Source: a virus
Length of the DNA stretch: 25,223 bases
Virus record (IMG/VR): IMGVR_UViG_3300032298_000962
Coordinates: 1-25,223 of that record
Strand: one strand, 5' to 3'
In this document: positions 3,217 through 11,180 of the stretch, piece after piece
How positions within the stretch are numbered: position 1 is the stretch's first letter
How the letters are laid out: every line of letters starts with the position of its first letter
Position numbers and translations under genes: made by a program
Notes under the pieces: generated by a model
Told to the model about the DNA's origin: nothing
The model's input: the letters and a program-made list of their open reading frames with translations, nothing else
Databases searched by the model: none

Positions 3217-5376
3217 ATGGCAGAAACAATTGTATCACCTGGTGTACTAGCTATAGAAAACGACCAGTCATTTATCACTCAAGGACCTATTACTGCCGGA
3301 GCTGCTCTCATAGGCCCAACTGTTAAAGGAAAAGTAGGTATTCCTACTATAGTAACTTCATACAGCGATTATCAAAATAGATTTGGTGCTCAATTTTTAA
3401 GTGGAAGTAAGAATTATACTTACTTTACTTCAATATCAGCATATAATTATTTTAATAGTGGAGGAACAACGTTATTAGTTACCCGTGTTGTAAGTGGTTC
3501 ATTTACCCCAGCAACCTCTTCATTGATTCCTTCTTCCACTGCTGCTACTGCAGGGAATGCATTTTCTAATGCATTTTCTAATGCATTCTCAACCTCTCCA
3601 ATATCTTCAGCTACTTTAAATTTAACTACTCTTTCAACTTTAGCAGCTACATCAGGATCAAGTTCTTTTAATTTAAATGGTATTGACATTTATTATACTG
3701 GATCCCCAGTAACTAATACAACAAATAGTATTTACATTAATACTGCTTCTTTTTCAGGAAACACTGTTCTTGACTTTGTTGTAAGTTCATCTGCTACTCT
3801 TTATTTAAGCAGCTCAGTTTCACCATATGCTACCTACCTTCAATATATTTCATCTTCAGTAGCTTCACCAAATTTAATATTTGTTTCTACTAACCCTAAT
3901 GGATTATTAGGTAACTTATATTATTTCACTTCAGGAAGTACTACTACATATTTTTCTGGAGGATCTAATACAGAAGCTTTTATTCTTGAAACCCTTTCTG
4001 AAGGTGAACTTATGAATAGCACTGGTCCTACAGGACTAAATAATACCCTACTTTCAGGTTCAAGTGAAAATTATAGATGGCAAATTACTTCTCCTAATGT
4101 TAATGATGGAACTTTTTATTTACTCATTAGACAAGGAAATGATACTTTAAATTCACCATCAATTTTAGAATCTTGGGGTCCATTATCTTTAGATCCTAAT
4201 TCTTCTAATTATGTTGAAAAAGTAATAGGTAATCAAGTTGAAACTGTTCAATTCGATTCTTCAACAGGAGAATATTATGTTGAAATGGTTGGAAACTTTA
4301 TAAACCAATCAAGATATGTTAGAGTAAAACAAGTTAATATTACTACTCCGGATTATCTTGATAATGCTGGAAACCCAAAACCACAGTACACTGGTTCAAT
4401 TCCTTTCCCATCAAGTGGATCTTTTGGAAGTGCAATTGGTTCAAATATTCCTTTTGGAAAAGCCGGAAATTATTATGAAAATATAACCAATACTAATGTT
4501 CAAGGTTTACAAGCAAGTGACTATAATCAATCTATAGGATTACTTTCTAATCAAGATGCTTATAATTACAATGTGCTTACTGCTCCTGGACTTATAGGTG
4601 ATGGTACTAATTATCCTGCTCATGTTTCTGTTGTTACTAATCTAATTTCAACAGTACAAAACAGAGGAGATGCTATGACTGTAGTAGACCTAGTAGGATA
4701 CGGTTCCAACATTATCCCAGTAACTACAAACGCTCTTACATATGATACTTCATATGCTGCAGCTTATTGGCCTTGGGTTCAAACAATTGATCCTAATACT
4801 GGAGAAAGAGTTTGGGTACCAGCTTCAACTATGATTCCAAGTGTATATGCATTTAATGATGCTGCTTCTGCTCCTTGGTATGCACCTGCTGGAACTTCTC
4901 GTGGTGTATTAAGTACAGTTATTAGAGCAGAACGTTCATTAACTCAAGGAAATAGAGATTTACTTTATGATAATAATGTAAACTCAATTGCTACTTTCCC
5001 TAATACTGGTGTAGTAGTATTTGGTCAAAAGACATTACAAAAGAAAAAAAGTGCTCTTGATCGTGTAAATGTACGTCGTTTGTTAATTGAACTTAAAAAT
5101 TATATCTCTCAAATTGCTGATACATTAGTATTTGAACAAAATAATGTTACTACAAGAAATAATTTCTTAGCTCAAGTTAATCCATATTTAGCATCTGTTC
5201 AACAACAACAAGGTTTAACCGCATTTAGAGTTGTAATGGATGAATCTAATAACCCACCATCAGTTGTAGATAATAATCAATTAGTAGGACAAATTTATTT
5301 ACAACCTACACGTACAGCTGAATTTATTATGCTTGACTTTAATATATTACCTACAGGTGCAACGTTTCCTGTTTAA
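3217..5376 (+). CDS. Contractile tail sheath protein, copy A (gp18-like)
   Basis: The 719-residue product matches the architecture of T4-type sheath proteins (T4 gp18 is about 660 residues). The N-terminus has SPGVLAIENDQSF, AGAALIGPTVKGKVGIPT and a SYSDYQNRFG block. The conserved C-terminal domain (about residues 505-719) has YWPWVQTIDP, VWVPASTMIPSVYAFND, APWYAPAGTSRGVLS, LDRVNVRRLLIEL and ends QPTRTAEFIMLDFNILPTG. Sheath subunits polymerise around the tail tube and contract to drive it through the envelope. The middle (about residues 95-400) is Ser/Thr/Asn-rich and variable, probably the exposed domain; it includes a threefold NAFS microrepeat. The next gene is a clear paralog. It is preceded by a late-promoter-like 15-mer and has no Shine-Dalgarno sequence. 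Confidence 0.93.
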   Translation: MAETIVSPGVLAIENDQSFITQGPITAGAALIGPTVKGKVGIPTIVTSYSDYQNRFGAQFLSGSKNYTYFTSISAYNYFNSGGTTLLVTRVVSGSFTPATSSLIPSSTAATAGNAFSNAFSNAFSTSPISSATLNLTTLSTLAATSGSSSFNLNGIDIYYTGSPVTNTTNSIYINTASFSGNTVLDFVVSSSATLYLSSSVSPYATYLQYISSSVASPNLIFVSTNPNGLLGNLYYFTSGSTTTYFSGGSNTEAFILETLSEGELMNSTGPTGLNNTLLSGSSENYRWQITSPNVNDGTFYLLIRQGNDTLNSPSILESWGPLSLDPNSSNYVEKVIGNQVETVQFDSSTGEYYVEMVGNFINQSRYVRVKQVNITTPDYLDNAGNPKPQYTGSIPFPSSGSFGSAIGSNIPFGKAGNYYENITNTNVQGLQASDYNQSIGLLSNQDAYNYNVLTAPGLIGDGTNYPAHVSVVTNLISTVQNRGDAMTVVDLVGYGSNIIPVTTNALTYDTSYAAAYWPWVQTIDPNTGERVWVPASTMIPSVYAFNDAASAPWYAPAGTSRGVLSTVIRAERSLTQGNRDLLYDNNVNSIATFPNTGVVVFGQKTLQKKKSALDRVNVRRLLIELKNYISQIADTLVFEQNNVTTRNNFLAQVNPYLASVQQQQGLTAFRVVMDESNNPPSVVDNNQLVGQIYLQPTRTAEFIMLDFNILPTGATFPV
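3556..3591 (+). repeat. 3 x 12-bp tandem repeat in sheath A (NAFS x3)
   Basis: The word aatgcattttct occurs twice in a row, followed by a third copy ending in ctca. The repeats stay in frame and encode NAFS three times. They lie in the variable exposed part of the sheath and have no counterpart in the second sheath gene. Confidence 0.9.
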
Positions 5377-5401
5377 TAATATATTTTAAGGAAATTTTAG
5401 A

Positions 5402-5416
5402 TATTTATAATAAAAC
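5402..5416 (+). promoter_or_regulatory. Putative phage late promoter (15-mer copy 3)
   Basis: TATTTATAATAAAAC, one base off the consensus, 14 bases before the second sheath ATG, with TATAAT at 5406-5411. The bases between it and the ATG are almost only A and T. Confidence 0.6.
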
Positions 5417-5430
5417 TAAAATAAAATAAA

Positions 5431-7446
5431 ATGTCAAATTTTACAACTTCTCCTGGAGTAGCAATAAGCGAAATAGATAACACATTCTTAACTGGACAAC
5501 CGGTTCAAGCAGGTGCTGCTATTATAGGTCCAACAGTAAAAGGTCCTGTAGAAAAACCAACCCTAGTTACTTCGTACTCTGATTTCGTAATGATGTTTGG
5601 AGATACATTTATTAGTGGAGGTCAATCTTATTCTTATCTTACTTCAATTGCTGCCTATAATTACTTCAATTATGGAGGAGATTCATTATTAGTTGCTCGT
5701 GTAACTAGTGGATCATATTCATCCGCTATAACAAAAGATGTTAATTCAGGAGTAGCATTAAGTTTTGCTTCTGCATCTCTTAATTTAACTAATGCCGTTG
5801 CTACTGGATATACAGCTTCTTTCAATGGGGTGAATGTAATTTTATCCGGTTCAAGTGTTCAAAATGTATTTAACAATGCTACTTCCTCAGTAGTAATCCC
5901 TTCAAACCCCTCAAACTTTTATACTAATACTATCATTAATAGTAGTGCTTCTTTTAACACTCCTAATATGGTAGTAACCTCAAATACCCCAGGTATTACT
6001 GGAAACTCATATTATTATGTTTCTGGATCTACTACAGTATATTATTCTGGTGGTTCTAACGGAATTTCTTTTGTATTAGAAACTATTTCCGAAGGAAATT
6101 TAATGAACAATTCAGGTTCTAATGCTTTAGGAACTAATGGAGCTTTAAATTCAGGGTCAATTGCTAATATTCGTTGGGAAGTTACTAATGCTAATACCGG
6201 ATCAGGTACATTTAATATCTTAGTTAGACGTGGTAATGATGTTGAATCTAGTAAAGTAATACTAGAGGCATGGAATAATTTAACATTAGATCCAAATTCA
6301 ACACGTTATATTGCTAAAGTAATAGGTGACCAAAAATTAAATTATAGCTCTGTTAATAACCAAATGGAGGTATCTGGAAGTTTTCCAAATAATTCAAAAT
6401 ATATCCGTGTAAAAGCAGTTAATTATCCAACTCCAAATTATTTTGATGCTAATGGTGTTGCTATTACAGCATATACAGCTTCAATTCCATTAAATGGTAG
6501 TGGTTCAAATGGTGGAACATTTTACAATGCTACGGGTAATGTAAATAATGTTATTAATTTATATGATGCTATTGCTACAAACACTCAAGGATTAATAGGA
6601 ACTGATTACAATAACATGGTTTCTCTTTTAGGAAACCCTGAAGCTTATCAATTTAATATCCTATTCACTCCTGGATTACTAAATGATACTCATACTACTC
6701 AAGTTACAAATATTATTTCTAATACAATTGCTAGAGGAGATAGTATGTATGTGTTAGATTTAGGAACATATGGTAGTTCACTTGGAGAAGCAGTAACCCA
6801 AGCTAACACAAGAGATACTTCATATGCAGCAACATATTGGCCTTGGGTTCGAATTATTGATCCGGCAACAGGAAAACATGTTTGGGTACCAGCTTCAACA
6901 ATGATCCCAGGTGTATACGCATTTAATGATAAAGTATCTGCTCCTTGGTTTGCACCAGCAGGTATTAACCGCGGTGGATTAAGCACAGTTCTTCAAGCTG
7001 AATATAAACTTACTCAAGGTAATCGTGATACGTTATATAGCAACAATATCAACCCTATTGCAACATTACCTCAACAAGGTGTAGTAGTATATGGTCAGAA
7101 AACATTACAAAAATCTCAATCTGCTTTAGACCGTGTAAACGTACGTCGTTTAATGATTGAATTAAAATCTTATATCCGCCAAATTGCAGATACAATTGTA
7201 TTTGAACAAAACACAATTGCAACAAGAAATTCATTTGTATCTCGAGTTAATCCTTACTTAGAAGCAATTCAACAAAAACAAGGATTATATGCATTTAAGA
7301 TTGTAATGGATGATACCAATAATGGACCAGCAGTAATCGACCAAAACCAATTAGTAGGTCAGATTTATATCCAACCAACTCGTACAGCTGAATTCATTTC
7401 GTTAGATTTTATTTTACAACCAACAGGAGCTCAGTTCCCGATATAA
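5431..7446 (+). CDS. Contractile tail sheath protein, copy B (gp18-like)
   Basis: A 671-residue paralog of the preceding sheath. The shared N-terminal blocks include SPGVAISEIDNTF, AGAAIIGPTVKGPVEKPT, VTSYSDF and AAYNYFNYGG. The shared C-terminal domain (about residues 457-671) includes YWPWVRIIDP, VWVPASTMIPGVYAFND, APWFAPAG, QKTLQKSQSALDRVNVRRL and QPTRTAEFISLDFILQPTG. The middle is shorter and diverged, without the NAFS microrepeat. Its length is closer to T4 gp18 than copy A, and it lies next to the tube gene as gp18 lies next to gp19, so it may be the ancestral-type sheath. It has its own late-promoter-like 15-mer, so the two copies can be expressed at different levels. Whether both are in the virion cannot be told from sequence. 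Confidence 0.93.
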   Translation: MSNFTTSPGVAISEIDNTFLTGQPVQAGAAIIGPTVKGPVEKPTLVTSYSDFVMMFGDTFISGGQSYSYLTSIAAYNYFNYGGDSLLVARVTSGSYSSAITKDVNSGVALSFASASLNLTNAVATGYTASFNGVNVILSGSSVQNVFNNATSSVVIPSNPSNFYTNTIINSSASFNTPNMVVTSNTPGITGNSYYYVSGSTTVYYSGGSNGISFVLETISEGNLMNNSGSNALGTNGALNSGSIANIRWEVTNANTGSGTFNILVRRGNDVESSKVILEAWNNLTLDPNSTRYIAKVIGDQKLNYSSVNNQMEVSGSFPNNSKYIRVKAVNYPTPNYFDANGVAITAYTASIPLNGSGSNGGTFYNATGNVNNVINLYDAIATNTQGLIGTDYNNMVSLLGNPEAYQFNILFTPGLLNDTHTTQVTNIISNTIARGDSMYVLDLGTYGSSLGEAVTQANTRDTSYAATYWPWVRIIDPATGKHVWVPASTMIPGVYAFNDKVSAPWFAPAGINRGGLSTVLQAEYKLTQGNRDTLYSNNINPIATLPQQGVVVYGQKTLQKSQSALDRVNVRRLMIELKSYIRQIADTIVFEQNTIATRNSFVSRVNPYLEAIQQKQGLYAFKIVMDDTNNGPAVIDQNQLVGQIYIQPTRTAEFISLDFILQPTGAQFPI

Positions 7447-7493: not shown

Positions 7494-7982
7494 ATGGCAA
7501 TTTTAAATCCAAACGAAATATTTTTCACAGCGTTTGAACCTAAACAAACCAACCGTTTTATCCTTTATATGGATGGCGTTCCATCATATTTGGTAAAAGG
7601 AGTAGGAGCAGTGTCTTTAACACAAACAGCAGTTGCCCTTAACCACATTAACGTTCAACGTTATGTAAAAGGAAAAACTGTTTGGAACACTATTCAATTT
7701 ACATTGTATGATTCAATCACTCCAAGTGGTGCACAATCAGTAATGGAATGGGTACGTTTGGGTCACGAATCAGTAACAGGCCGTGACGGTTATTCAGATT
7801 TCTACAAGAAAGATATTACATTCAATGTTTTAGGTCCTGTAGGTGATATCGTTTCTGAATGGATTGTTAAAGGAGCTGTTATTACAGAAGTTAACTTTGG
7901 CGATTATAACTGGGATGACGATGGAACTCCAGTAAATGTCCAAGTAACTGTACAACCTGACTACTGTATCTTGAACTACTAA
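7494..7982 (+). CDS. Tail tube protein (gp19-like)
   Basis: The 162-residue product equals the usual length of T4-type tube subunits (T4 gp19 is 163). The features fit the family: an N-terminal PNEIFFTAFEPKQTNRFILY followed by MDGVPSYLVKGV, a central VKGKTVWNTIQFTLYD, the EWVRLGHESVTGRDGY segment, and a C-terminal block with GPVGDIVSEWIVKGAVITEV and the NFGDYNWDDDG motif. The protein stacks as hexameric rings to form the inner tail tube through which DNA passes. It directly follows the sheath pair, as in T4. It is preceded by a late-promoter-like 15-mer and followed by a strong terminator, so high independent expression is expected. Confidence 0.93.
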   Translation: MAILNPNEIFFTAFEPKQTNRFILYMDGVPSYLVKGVGAVSLTQTAVALNHINVQRYVKGKTVWNTIQFTLYDSITPSGAQSVMEWVRLGHESVTGRDGYSDFYKKDITFNVLGPVGDIVSEWIVKGAVITEVNFGDYNWDDDGTPVNVQVTVQPDYCILNY

Positions 7983-8003
7983 GAACAAAACAACAAAGTA
8001 TAT

Positions 8004-8042
8004 AAAAGCTCCAAAGAAATTTGGGGCTTTTATTTTTCTTTT
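8004..8042 (+). terminator. Rho-independent terminator after the tail tube gene
   Basis: AAAAGCTCCAAA (8004-8015), a GAAA loop (8016-8019) and TTTGGGGCTTTT (8020-8031) form a 12-bp stem with a single G-U pair, followed by a T-rich tract. It ends the sheath/tube transcription unit 22 bases after the tube stop and separates it from the secreted-protein gene. Confidence 0.88.
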
Positions 8043-8055
8043 ATATATTGTGCTT

Positions 8056-10020
8056 ATGAAAAAATTAATTGTATTTCTTTTATTGACTAGTATAGGATAT
8101 AGTCAATATTGTCCTTCTTTAGGACCTGATCAATTGTTACCTTGTGGTGTAGGATCAACTACATTAACCGCAGATTTAAGTCAATGTGGTGCTGGTAGTA
8201 ACCCTAATCAAACAACAAATTATGGTGTTTCTAACATACCATATGTTGCTCAAACAAATACAGGAACTAATTTATTTATGTTAGATGACACCCAACAAGG
8301 TCCATTTAACATTGGTTTTAATTTTTGTTTTTTTGGAAGTACCTATACTCAATTTTATGTAGGTTCTAATGGTTGGATTTCTTTTAGTGGCGGTCAACCT
8401 GTAACTTTTACAACTCAAACAATCCCTACTGCTAGTCCTTTTGTACCTAAGAACTGTATTATGGGCCCTTGGCAAGACTGGCACCCAGGAGTAGGTGGTC
8501 AAATTAAATATCAAGTACAAGGTACTGCTCCTTGTAGAAAACTTATAGTTAGTTGGATTAATATGCCTATGTTTTTTTGTACTGCTACTACAGGTACATT
8601 TCACATTGTAATATATGAATCCTCTAATATTATTGAAAATTATATCCAATCAAAACAGTTTTGCGCTTGGCAAGGTGGAACATCAACTCAAGGAATTCAT
8701 AATAATATGGGTACAATTGGTATTGCTGTTCCTGGAAGAAATTCTACAGTATGGACTGCAAACAATGATGCTTGGAGATGGACTCCATCAGGACCAACAG
8801 TAAATCCTACTTTAACATGGTATCAAGTAGGTAATCCAAACCCAATTGGGTGGGGACCAACAATTAATGTTACACCCCCAGTAGGAGGTGCTCAATATAC
8901 TTGTCATTTTGTATATCCTATATGTAATGCAGGTTGGTCTGCATGTAATACTGGAGGTAATTTAGGACCTGATACTGTATTTGTACAACCCGGCCCACCA
9001 ATTCCCTCAACAGGACCAATTAATGGTACTGATACTATATGTTATTTAAGTTCAAGTGATATATATAATGTTCCTTTACAACCAAATTATAATTATCTTT
9101 GGATGTCTGTTGCCCCAATTATATCAGGCCAAAACACAAATCAAATTGAAGTAGATTTTAGTTCTTTTTCTCCTGGGTTTATTTCTGATGCTATTCAAGT
9201 AATTCCTGAAGAAAATGGATGTATTGGGTTACCTATTATATTTGATTTATTTATTTTAGATGTTTTACCTGTAATTGATTCTCTAGGACCGTTTTGTGAA
9301 TATGATGAATTTGTTACTTTAAATGCGGTTCCTGCTGGAGGAGTATTTAGTGGTGTAGGTGTTGGAGGTAATGATTTTTATCCTTCAAACGCAATAGGAA
9401 TTAACATTATTAATTATGAATATACTTTAAGTGGGTGTATATTTGATACAACAACAACCGTAATTGTTAATCCACAACCAACTCTTGATTCAATAACCCC
9501 ATACAATCCATTTTATCAAGTTTGTGAAGGTGATTCAATAGTAACAATATTTAATGCCCTTTCAAACCTGCCAGGATATAATGAATGGACATTTATGGGT
9601 ACAACATATCAACAAGATGATATTTCTATTTCTTTTGAAACCCCAGGAATGTTTCCTTTATCCGTAATTCATTATTCAAATGGGTGTGTTTCATCTATTC
9701 AAGAAACAGTAATCACAATAGCACGTTGTCCTGAATTATTATTTTATGTTCCGAATTCATTTACACCTGATGGGAATGAACATAATAATGTTTTCCAACC
9801 AGTATTTACAAATGGATTTGATCCATATGACTTTTATTTAGTAATATACAATCGTTGGGGAGAATTGATATATGAATCATATAATTCTACAGAATATTGG
9901 GATGGAACATATAATAATATACCGTGTCCTGTAGGATCATACACATATAAAATTCAATTTGGTTTTAAAGAAACAGATAATGACCAAATTATAAGTGGAA
10001 ATATTAATCTTATTAGATAG
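8056..10020 (+). CDS. Secreted protein with T9SS type-B sorting domain
   Basis: A 654-residue protein. ATG 8056 is preferred to GTG 8050 because it gives a typical signal peptide: MKKL, a hydrophobic core (IVFLLLTSIG), then YSQ, with likely cleavage before Gln as is common in Bacteroidota. About residues 19-300 form a Cys-, Gly- and Trp-rich domain (FYVGSNGWISF, GTFHIVIYESSNIIENYIQ, GTIGIAVPGRNSTVWTA) of a kind seen in large Bacteroidota surface proteins. Ig/PKD-like segments follow (about 310-560). The last 90 residues (VPNSFTPDGNEHNNVFQP, YNRWGELIYES, EYWDGTY, PVGSYTYKI, GNINLIR) match the gliding-motility-associated C-terminal domain (CHU_C/TIGR04131 type), the T9SS type-B sorting signal. 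The expected route is Sec export, then T9SS export to the cell surface. It lies between the tube and tail-assembly genes behind a terminator. Its role in the phage is unknown. Confidence 0.88.
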   Translation: MKKLIVFLLLTSIGYSQYCPSLGPDQLLPCGVGSTTLTADLSQCGAGSNPNQTTNYGVSNIPYVAQTNTGTNLFMLDDTQQGPFNIGFNFCFFGSTYTQFYVGSNGWISFSGGQPVTFTTQTIPTASPFVPKNCIMGPWQDWHPGVGGQIKYQVQGTAPCRKLIVSWINMPMFFCTATTGTFHIVIYESSNIIENYIQSKQFCAWQGGTSTQGIHNNMGTIGIAVPGRNSTVWTANNDAWRWTPSGPTVNPTLTWYQVGNPNPIGWGPTINVTPPVGGAQYTCHFVYPICNAGWSACNTGGNLGPDTVFVQPGPPIPSTGPINGTDTICYLSSSDIYNVPLQPNYNYLWMSVAPIISGQNTNQIEVDFSSFSPGFISDAIQVIPEENGCIGLPIIFDLFILDVLPVIDSLGPFCEYDEFVTLNAVPAGGVFSGVGVGGNDFYPSNAIGINIINYEYTLSGCIFDTTTTVIVNPQPTLDSITPYNPFYQVCEGDSIVTIFNALSNLPGYNEWTFMGTTYQQDDISISFETPGMFPLSVIHYSNGCVSSIQETVITIARCPELLFYVPNSFTPDGNEHNNVFQPVFTNGFDPYDFYLVIYNRWGELIYESYNSTEYWDGTYNNIPCPVGSYTYKIQFGFKETDNDQIISGNINLIR

Positions 10021-10038: not shown

Positions 10039-10410
10039 ATGAAACTAGATAGTTTACGTACGTTAGTTAAAGAGGAGCTTAGTAAGCGACTAAATGAGGA
10101 ATACCAAGATAAATTTAAAATGGTAGGTATGCTCATTACTAACATTAAAAAACGCCCCCAAAAAGAAATATTTTCCGATATCCGTTCTATTCCAGGTGTT
10201 ACAGTAGCATCTGTAAAAGAACCAATGGAATACAGTGAACAAGATACAGAAAAATTTCAATCTATAATGACTGTTAAAGTAGATGGTCATCCATGGATTT
10301 CAAAAGGTGGATTTGATCGTACAAAAATGGAAGATATCCGTAAAGCAATATTAAAAGTAGAAGGAGTATTATCATTTAATGTGAATCCTGATAATGTTTC
10401 TACTATTTAA
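10039..10410 (+). CDS. Small phage protein with ferredoxin/ACT-like pattern, unknown
   Basis: A 123-residue protein. The first 20 residues (MKLDSLRTLVKEELSKRLNE) form an amphipathic helix of the type LxxLxxEExxKxLNE, which recurs at the start of many T4-like marine phage proteins. The rest alternates strand-helix-strand-strand-helix-strand: KMVGMLITNIKK, a helix (QKEIFSDIRSIPGV), VTVASVKEP, QSIMTVKVDG, a helix (MEDIRKAILKVEGV) and SFNVNP. The pattern, with two IPGV/VEGV turns, suggests a ferredoxin-like (ACT/heavy-metal-type) fold, though without metal-binding cysteines. It lies between the secreted protein and the baseplate-assembly gene. I do not recognise a named family; the fold assignment is an inference. 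Confidence 0.6.
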   Translation: MKLDSLRTLVKEELSKRLNEEYQDKFKMVGMLITNIKKRPQKEIFSDIRSIPGVTVASVKEPMEYSEQDTEKFQSIMTVKVDGHPWISKGGFDRTKMEDIRKAILKVEGVLSFNVNPDNVSTI

Positions 10411-10451: not shown

Positions 10452-11180
10452 ATGAGTGAATTTAAATTACCAACTGAAATAGTTGAATTACCTTCTAAAG
10501 GTTTACTTTATCCTGAAGATTCTGAATTAGCAAAAGGTACAGTCGAAATTAAGTATATGACCGCTAAGGAAGAAGATATCCTTACTAATCAATCATATAT
10601 TAGAAGTGGTACTGTACTTGATAAATTATTAAAATCAATTATTGTATCTAAAATTAATTTTGATGATCTATTAATTGGTGATAAAAATGCAATTATGGTT
10701 GCTGCTCGTATTTTAGGATATGGTTCTGAGTATTCATTTGATTATTTAGGTGAATCTTACACAATTGATTTATCTCAAATCGAAAACAAACCACTTAAAG
10801 AAGAATTATTCAAATCTCGTACAAATGAATTTACATTTACCTTACCAAAAACAGGTAATGTAATTACTTTTAAAGTTTTAAACCACAAAGACGAACAGGA
10901 TATTAATCGTGAATTAGAAGGTTTAAAGAAAATCAATAAAGACGCTTCTCCTGAGCTTTCAACCCGTTTAAAATATATGATCACCTCAGTTGAAGGTAAT
11001 CGTGATAGAAAAGATATTCGGGAATTTGTAGATAATTATCTTTTAGCTCAAGATTCTCGAGCATTAAGAGAATACATTAAAGAAGTTCAACCAGATGTTG
11101 ATCTAACTTTTTTTCCCGACGGTTCTGACACTAGAGTCAATATCCCAATTGGGGTTAGCTTTTTTTGGCCTGACATCTAA
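10452..11180 (+). CDS. Baseplate hub / tail assembly protein (gp26-like)
   Basis: A 242-residue soluble protein. The N-terminus (IVELPSKGLLYPEDSEL, then GTVEIKYMTAKEEDILTNQS), the central DDLLIGDKNAIMVAARILGYG and the C-terminal IPIGVSFFWPD block match what I recall of T4-type baseplate hub assembly proteins in marine myoviruses. The last 32 bases overlap the next open frame, which is in the +1 phase and lacks an ATG, and the tape measure gene follows it. That layout is like the paired tail assembly chaperones (G/GT type) that coat the tape measure protein in other tailed phages. Two runs of seven T (11108-11114 and 11160-11166) lie in the region open in both frames. The exact T4 equivalent (gp26 or another hub gene) is uncertain. 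Confidence 0.6.
   Translation: MSEFKLPTEIVELPSKGLLYPEDSELAKGTVEIKYMTAKEEDILTNQSYIRSGTVLDKLLKSIIVSKINFDDLLIGDKNAIMVAARILGYGSEYSFDYLGESYTIDLSQIENKPLKEELFKSRTNEFTFTLPKTGNVITFKVLNHKDEQDINRELEGLKKINKDASPELSTRLKYMITSVEGNRDRKDIREFVDNYLLAQDSRALREYIKEVQPDVDLTFFPDGSDTRVNIPIGVSFFWPDI

Follow-up and report, generated by a model that had tools for sequence, protein, structure and literature searches.

A predicted type IX secretion system type-B cargo protein encoded in a phage tail module and conserved across a phage family

The open reading frame at positions 8056-10020 (+) of the window, by which the whole analyzed stretch of viral DNA with a length of 25,223 nt is meant, encodes a 654-aa protein that, judged by its sequence features, is a type-B cargo-format protein of the type IX secretion system (T9SS). 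The best reading of this gene is a moron-like insertion of a Bacteroidota adhesin-type gene that was captured once. Its product is probably a host-derived surface protein exported during infection. A first-pass annotation of the same DNA had proposed that a host-format surface protein is made in infection; this is favored by the conservation of the export signals, from which we infer the export of the phage protein during infection.

Export signals of the encoded protein

The HMM search proposed in the first-pass annotation was carried out for the C-terminal domain (CTD), and both models of the type-B sorting domain (9748-10017, +) matched above their curated cut-offs. Pfam CHU_C reached 45.8 bits (E 6.8e-12, residues 565-643, cut-off 27) and TIGR04131 Bac_Flav_CTERM 44.1 bits (E 1.7e-11, residues 565-654, profile positions 3-85 of 85, cut-off 35). 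The latter match extends to residue 654 of 654 and thus to the extreme C-terminus of the cargo protein. This is the only sorting-domain match in the whole 25 kb record, compared to none in 14 control genomes.

At the N-terminus, a putative Sec signal peptide, MKKLIVFLLLTSIGYS (8056-8103, +), is followed by QYC. It consists of an n-region, an h-region and a cleavage site between G-Y-S and Q, so that Gln starts the mature protein, which agrees with the Q-rule of Bacteroidetes describing signal peptide cleavage that exposes a glutamine (PMC5837995). Signal peptides were evaluated with our own strict criteria across 91 distinct full-length phage homologs and detected in 84 of them, so that the signal peptide claimed in the first-pass annotation is borne out by the sequence as well as by its conservation in the phage copies. 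Among the seven others, two have Asn at position -1 and five were missed by the pattern for the mature start; the N-termini of these five resemble signal peptides too. The +1 residue is Gln in all 64 distinct phage signal-peptide sequences, a count that is partly built in because the search pattern looks for Gln; Q17 is also invariant in alignments that were not constrained by this pattern.

The sorting-domain motifs are kept in 89 of the 91 distinct full-length copies, and the blocks FTPDG, NRWGE, WDGTY, G-Y and the last G are conserved among the phage homologs. Five motifs of the CTD, A-E, are needed for type-B secretion (PMC12618676). In nine pairs of phage copies, dN/dS amounts to 0.10-0.19 for the whole cargo gene and to 0-0.17 for the sorting domain, compared to 0.12-0.31 for the middle part of the protein. 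The sequence of the signal peptide varies while the feature itself persists, a pattern expected from selection for export. According to these sequence comparisons, purifying selection acts on the export signals throughout this large phage family.

Genomic context in the tail module

The window contains a contractile-tail module with two sheaths (phrog_23), a tube, a gp26-like hub, a tape-measure-like protein and a gp53-like wedge, followed by ssDNA-binding-like, UvsX/RecA-like and exonuclease genes. The cargo gene is located between the tail tube gene upstream (7494-7982, +; phrog_4542, E 4e-22) and the gp26-like baseplate hub gene downstream (10452-11180, +; phrog_150, E 1e-8), whose homolog in the Flavobacterium phage immuto 2-6A is annotated as baseplate hub subunit. 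A small gene without family match (10039-10410, +) usually comes next after the cargo gene in the lineage of the window. The order of tube, cargo gene, small gene (not always present) and hub is repeated on about 29 other viral contigs, as far as these extend, which excludes a misassembly and confirms the earlier assignment of the gene to the phage genome between tube and baseplate genes.

Phage immuto has a comparable tail module, with a sheath 43% identical to that of the window. There, the tube is directly followed by the hub with a gap of 108 nt, and the cargo gene is absent from this site, which identifies the cargo gene as an insertion in an immuto-like tail module.

Further features of the window were recorded. 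The tail-sheath genes are arranged in tandem (3217-5376 and 5431-7446), a pair that is kept in the relatives and represented by a single gene in immuto. The region 1411-2877 encodes repeated SHAEG motifs like those of a YadA head, probably belonging to a fiber or trimeric adhesin-like protein (PHROG 25468). At the start of the fragment (2-832) a Radical SAM/SPASM-like protein is encoded, followed by a TPR-like protein. Rfam and tRNA searches gave no matches in the window.

Phage family and bacterial origin

By searching IMG/VR with the cargo protein, 37 contigs encoding relatives were found, most of them near full length and with 57-89% identity. Alignment-based searches detected the N-terminal domain on 198 viral contigs and type-B sorting domains on 421; sequences were taken from the best 80 of the 198 and the best 80 of the 421 contigs, which overlap with the first 37. 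The IMG/VR records are fragments without completeness values. The search for proteins with signal peptide and CHU_C domain near the tail genes of other phages, as suggested in the first-pass annotation, thereby yielded the 91 full-length copies, many of which lie far from tail genes. Next to these copies, genes resembling those for thymidylate synthase, thioesterase and phosphoesterase were found, among others, and a distance of about 75-120 kb separates the cargo gene from the tail sheath in several long contigs (e.g., G033, G034, G037 and G042). Each of 19 contigs of 68-229 kb encodes one type-B protein, except for one contig with two. Using tblastn, the type-B CTD was found in no cultured phage, and the only matches were two metagenomic phages of 635-642 kb. 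One of them, LR745206 (635 kb), encodes further type-B proteins in addition to a copy 48% identical to the cargo protein; three type-B domains are present in the second one, LR756502 (642 kb).

Two observations concern the neighbors of individual copies. In LR745206, a glycine-rich type-B cargo gene (L040:3309-5807, -) is situated about 8 kb from the cargo homolog, and in Flavobacteriales UBA6165 a similar glycine-rich type-B gene (L070:9337-10476, +) directly follows the cellular homolog; the cargo gene and its glycine-rich neighbor look as if they had been captured as a pair. On the phage contig L032, a GroEL-like gene (4108-5730), recognized by reading of the sequence, is found near the cargo homolog.

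A search of genome contigs revealed 119 relatives, nearly all of them in Bacteroidota, of which the best 80 were taken. Exceptions are a few weak, distant matches from other phyla and a MAG labeled Competibacteraceae that contains one near relative. The cellular homologs are located among chromosomal genes (UvrD-, MurA-, IF-3- and L20-like by ORF reading). Like the phage protein, the chromosomal homologs of Bacteroidota (e.g., L063, L067, L069 and L070) have the N-terminal domain, with roughly 53-64% identity, a signal peptide following the Q-rule and, where the C-termini were checked, a type-B-like CTD. They differ from the phage copies in being mostly longer (about 730-1400 aa), chromosomal and outside the phage clade.

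In the phylogenetic tree, the 37 phage rows form one clade (support 100/99) nested among the cellular rows of Bacteroidota. In a larger tree, 89 distinct phage rows fall on one side of a branch (SH-aLRT 98), and the context changes between tail and non-tail at least 5 times. The single nested clade together with these context changes points to one capture from a Bacteroidota host and subsequent movement between phages. Since the cellular sample was drawn with patterns from the phage alignment, the nearest cellular donor may be missing from it.

The existence of close cellular homologs could also be explained by a chance fragment of host DNA, i.e., a misassembly, a contamination or a decaying passenger gene. 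This is extremely improbable given the identical junctions on about 29 contigs, the grouping of all phage copies in one clade apart from the cellular rows and the dN/dS of about 0.1-0.19; misassembly and contamination were rejected on the same grounds.

Transcription signals and cysteine content

Between the tube and the cargo gene, an intrinsic terminator was predicted, consisting of a hairpin with a 14-pair stem and a T-rich tail (8002-8033, +; fold z -5.7). This hairpin is the best one in the scanned 20 kb and is conserved in the relatives, in some of them with a differing sequence. Phage immuto, lacking the cargo gene at this site, has a different terminator-like hairpin after its tube gene. 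For this reason, transcription of the tube gene probably stops at the hairpin, with the cargo gene having been inserted downstream of it.

The motif ATATTTATAATAAAAT occurs shortly 5′ of the genes for the YadA-head-like protein, both sheaths, the tube and the tape as well as of o14210 (sites at 1389, 3189, 5401, 7463 and 14186, all +). It is conserved in the relatives, is also found in immuto and probably represents a promoter or leader element of late genes. In front of the cargo gene, the best match to the motif does not exceed the background (median 9 of 16, compared to 9.2 in random blocks). In the lineage of the window, where the cargo gene lies in the tail module, it could be expressed late by read-through. 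A sigma-type promoter (TTTG/TATATT) between the terminator and the start codon is not claimed; the candidate overlaps the conserved hairpin.

The cargo protein contains 19 Cys, of which 18 are invariant among 20 aligned phage copies. By comparison, the tube protein of the window has a single Cys, and its sheath, hub and tape contain none. The even number of invariant Cys fits a disulfide-bonded protein that folds outside the cytoplasm.

These data bear on the alternative, already raised in the first-pass annotation, that a secreted Bacteroidota protein has been reused as a virion part, namely as a tail decoration or adhesin assembled beside tube and hub. The position of the gene between tube and hub in the lineage of the window would agree with this, as would the frequency of Ig-like or PKD-like folds among phage decorations. 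However, the conserved signal peptide would take the protein out of the cytoplasm, where virions are assembled, and together with the invariant Cys it argues against a virion part. Furthermore, the copies of other phages lie in unrelated neighborhoods, several of them at the distances from the sheath given above, the cargo gene is preceded by a terminator and does not have the motif found at the late genes for sheath, tube and tape, and a tail of this kind is also made by immuto, in which the gene is absent between tube and hub. The virion alternative is thus considerably weakened and regarded as quite improbable. No PHROG match was obtained for the cargo protein, although structural proteins can also go unmatched.

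Domain architecture

The mature protein, here read as an exported one, starts with a conserved, cysteine-rich and all-beta N-terminal domain (residues 17-320; 8104-9015, +) that is shared with the Bacteroidota homologs. As the full-length structure model was poor in this domain due to a shallow alignment, a model of the N-terminal domain only was used instead (AlphaFold2, 84 homologs), which reached a pLDDT of 93.9 and a pTM of 0.88. The comparison of this model with the PDB by Foldseek revealed no match below E 1e-3, and no sequence relatives of the domain were found in the PDB. With VIA-align, the best Z of 7.0 was obtained for single PKD/Ig domains, which were aligned to both ends of the model. 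The modeled N-terminal domain is therefore probably an Ig/PKD-like split domain carrying an insert of ~200 residues. In the BFVD, the best match was A0A6J5P7T5, an uncharacterized phage protein (E 3.6e-10). A kinship to the grappling-hook protein GhpA (Z about 6) was rejected because many Ig domains tie with it.

The N-terminal domain is followed by a PKD-like stalk domain (PKD_6; 9007-9177, +) with a match slightly below the cut-off. In longer homologs, a SprB-like repeat, which is under the Pfam cut-off, is inserted before the PKD-like domain. As far as can be deduced from the domain assignments, the combination of N-terminal domain, PKD, SprB-like repeats and type-B CTD is the layout of an adhesin.

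This layout would be in agreement with a function of the exported protein in adhesion or aggregation, by which infected cells would stick to other cells, particles or polysaccharide, so that the progeny find hosts more often. In related phages, a C-type lectin as well as a cohesin protein equipped with a type-A CTD are also encoded. On the other hand, neither a ligand nor a relative of solved structure was found for the N-terminal domain in structure and sequence searches of the PDB. Such a function is conceivable, though doubtful, and the adhesion of cells or particles is the next most likely use after the exclusion of competing phages discussed below.

Shuttle proteins and possible role during infection

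Type-B cargoes exit via SprA without PorV, and PorP/SprF-like shuttles serve to collect and anchor them; one shuttle can be shared by orphan type-B substrates (PMC12618676, PMC9143113). The cognate shuttle is commonly, though not invariably, encoded by the next gene, cargo and shuttle are required in stoichiometric amounts, and F. johnsoniae fails to secrete a type-B cargo when this is overproduced in the absence of its shuttle (PMC12618676). In the 41 phage records searched, no PorP/SprF-like shuttle (TIGR03519) was detected; the same search was positive in all of 12 Bacteroidota control genomes. The genomes with cellular homologs encode 5-25 PorP/SprF-like proteins, none of which could be recognized as adjoining these homologs in the neighbor lists inspected by eye.

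Due to the existence of orphan type-B substrates, the missing adjacent shuttle does not bar the phage protein from the type-B cargoes. The lack of a phage shuttle and the known type-B route make it most likely that the protein depends on a shuttle of the host and ends up at the surface of infected cells. In view of the F. johnsoniae result, export of the phage copy may be inefficient, or the copy may have a jamming effect.

Another reading is a decoy or inhibitor, in which the shuttle-less cargo titrates the host PorP/SprF-like shuttles and strips the cell of gliding adhesins or other T9SS surface proteins. The absence of shuttles from the phage records searched, the stoichiometric need for cargo and shuttle (PMC12618676) and the phage resistance of T9SS and gliding mutants (PMC9233685) are consistent with this. 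It is nevertheless rated as unlikely, since the N-terminal domain is conserved as strongly as the CTD and would be needless in a pure decoy.

For an exported and displayed protein, the following course is proposed. The phage protein would be made during infection with a Sec signal peptide, be cleaved to a Gln N-terminus and fold with disulfides in the periplasm. The T9SS of the host, whose presence is presumed, would then carry it across the outer membrane, where a PorP/SprF-like shuttle of the host would hold it with the N-terminal domain exposed on the outside of the infected cell. An altered cell surface would be the most likely benefit: competing phages might be excluded because the T9SS shuttles are occupied or because T9SS-delivered adhesins, required for entry by phages of these hosts, are masked. 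The exclusion hypothesis is derived from the finding that gld/spr mutations make F. columnare phage-resistant (PMC9233685). On the basis of this flavobacterial surface biology, superinfection exclusion is tentatively put forward as the purpose of the protein. The more specific scenario, in which a once-captured type-B protein takes over PorP/SprF-like shuttles and displaces entry adhesins, so that superinfection is excluded via the T9SS/gliding apparatus, is possible but speculative.

If the proposed role is correct, tailed phages of Bacteroidota routinely remodel the surface of the infected cell via the host T9SS, and phage biology would be linked to the T9SS/gliding apparatus, whose mutations already confer phage resistance. 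The phage family furthermore represents a large natural set of shuttle-less type-B cargo for studying cargo-shuttle recognition.

Comparison with known systems

Moron genes of tailed phages encode surface-altering conversion or exclusion proteins. Like these, the cargo gene is derived from a host and interrupts a late gene region that is syntenic in other respects, without belonging to the structural units. It differs from typical morons in the export route, which would be the T9SS.

Like the T9SS type-B substrates SprB, Fjoh_3952 and PG1035, which have PorP/SprF-like shuttles (PMC12618676, PMC9143113), the phage protein starts with a Sec signal peptide and ends in a type-B CTD; a repeat or PKD stalk is shared with adhesin-type T9SS type-B substrates. 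Unlike SprB, Fjoh_3952 and PG1035, it is phage-encoded and has no adjacent shuttle gene. In F. johnsoniae, three type-B substrates are likewise orphans; they are served by Fjoh_1677, a PorP/SprF-like shuttle.

The first-pass annotation had assumed that no phage system of this kind is described. This does not hold for T9SS cargoes in general, as three type-A cargo proteins of the T9SS were reported for Cryophage (PMC7468147) and one is encoded by immuto; phage-encoded T9SS cargo as such is thus already known. In immuto, gp012-gp015 (L143:936-4423, NC_055915.1) form a run of genes with signal peptides that encode a DNA/RNA non-specific nuclease, a C-type lectin, an uncharacterized protein and, as gp015, a cohesin protein whose sorting domain is of T9SS type A. 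On the viral contig L036, the type-B gene is preceded by a comparable set. As a cultured Flavobacterium phage carrying a type-A cargo protein, immuto, with Flavobacterium sp. LMO8 as its host, is a ready laboratory model. For P. gingivalis phages, genes with Q-rule signal peptides, as found here, have been described, with no mention of a T9SS sorting domain there (PMC10367356).

The closest comparison is Cryophage, for which, as here, phage-encoded proteins with T9SS sorting domains were proposed to be secreted by the host and perhaps to serve superinfection exclusion (PMC7468147). The Cryophage cargoes belong to type A (TIGR04183) and comprise variable enzymes and a PA14 protein encoded in flexible islands (PMC7468147). 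In contrast, the protein of the window belongs to type B (TIGR04131), is adhesin-like and comes from one conserved family that arose once and occurs in many phages. An earlier report of a phage family of type-B T9SS cargo was not found in a literature search of mainly openly accessible papers. As far as these papers show, the type-B phage family is new, as are the findings that it arose once, is widely distributed and was relocated repeatedly.
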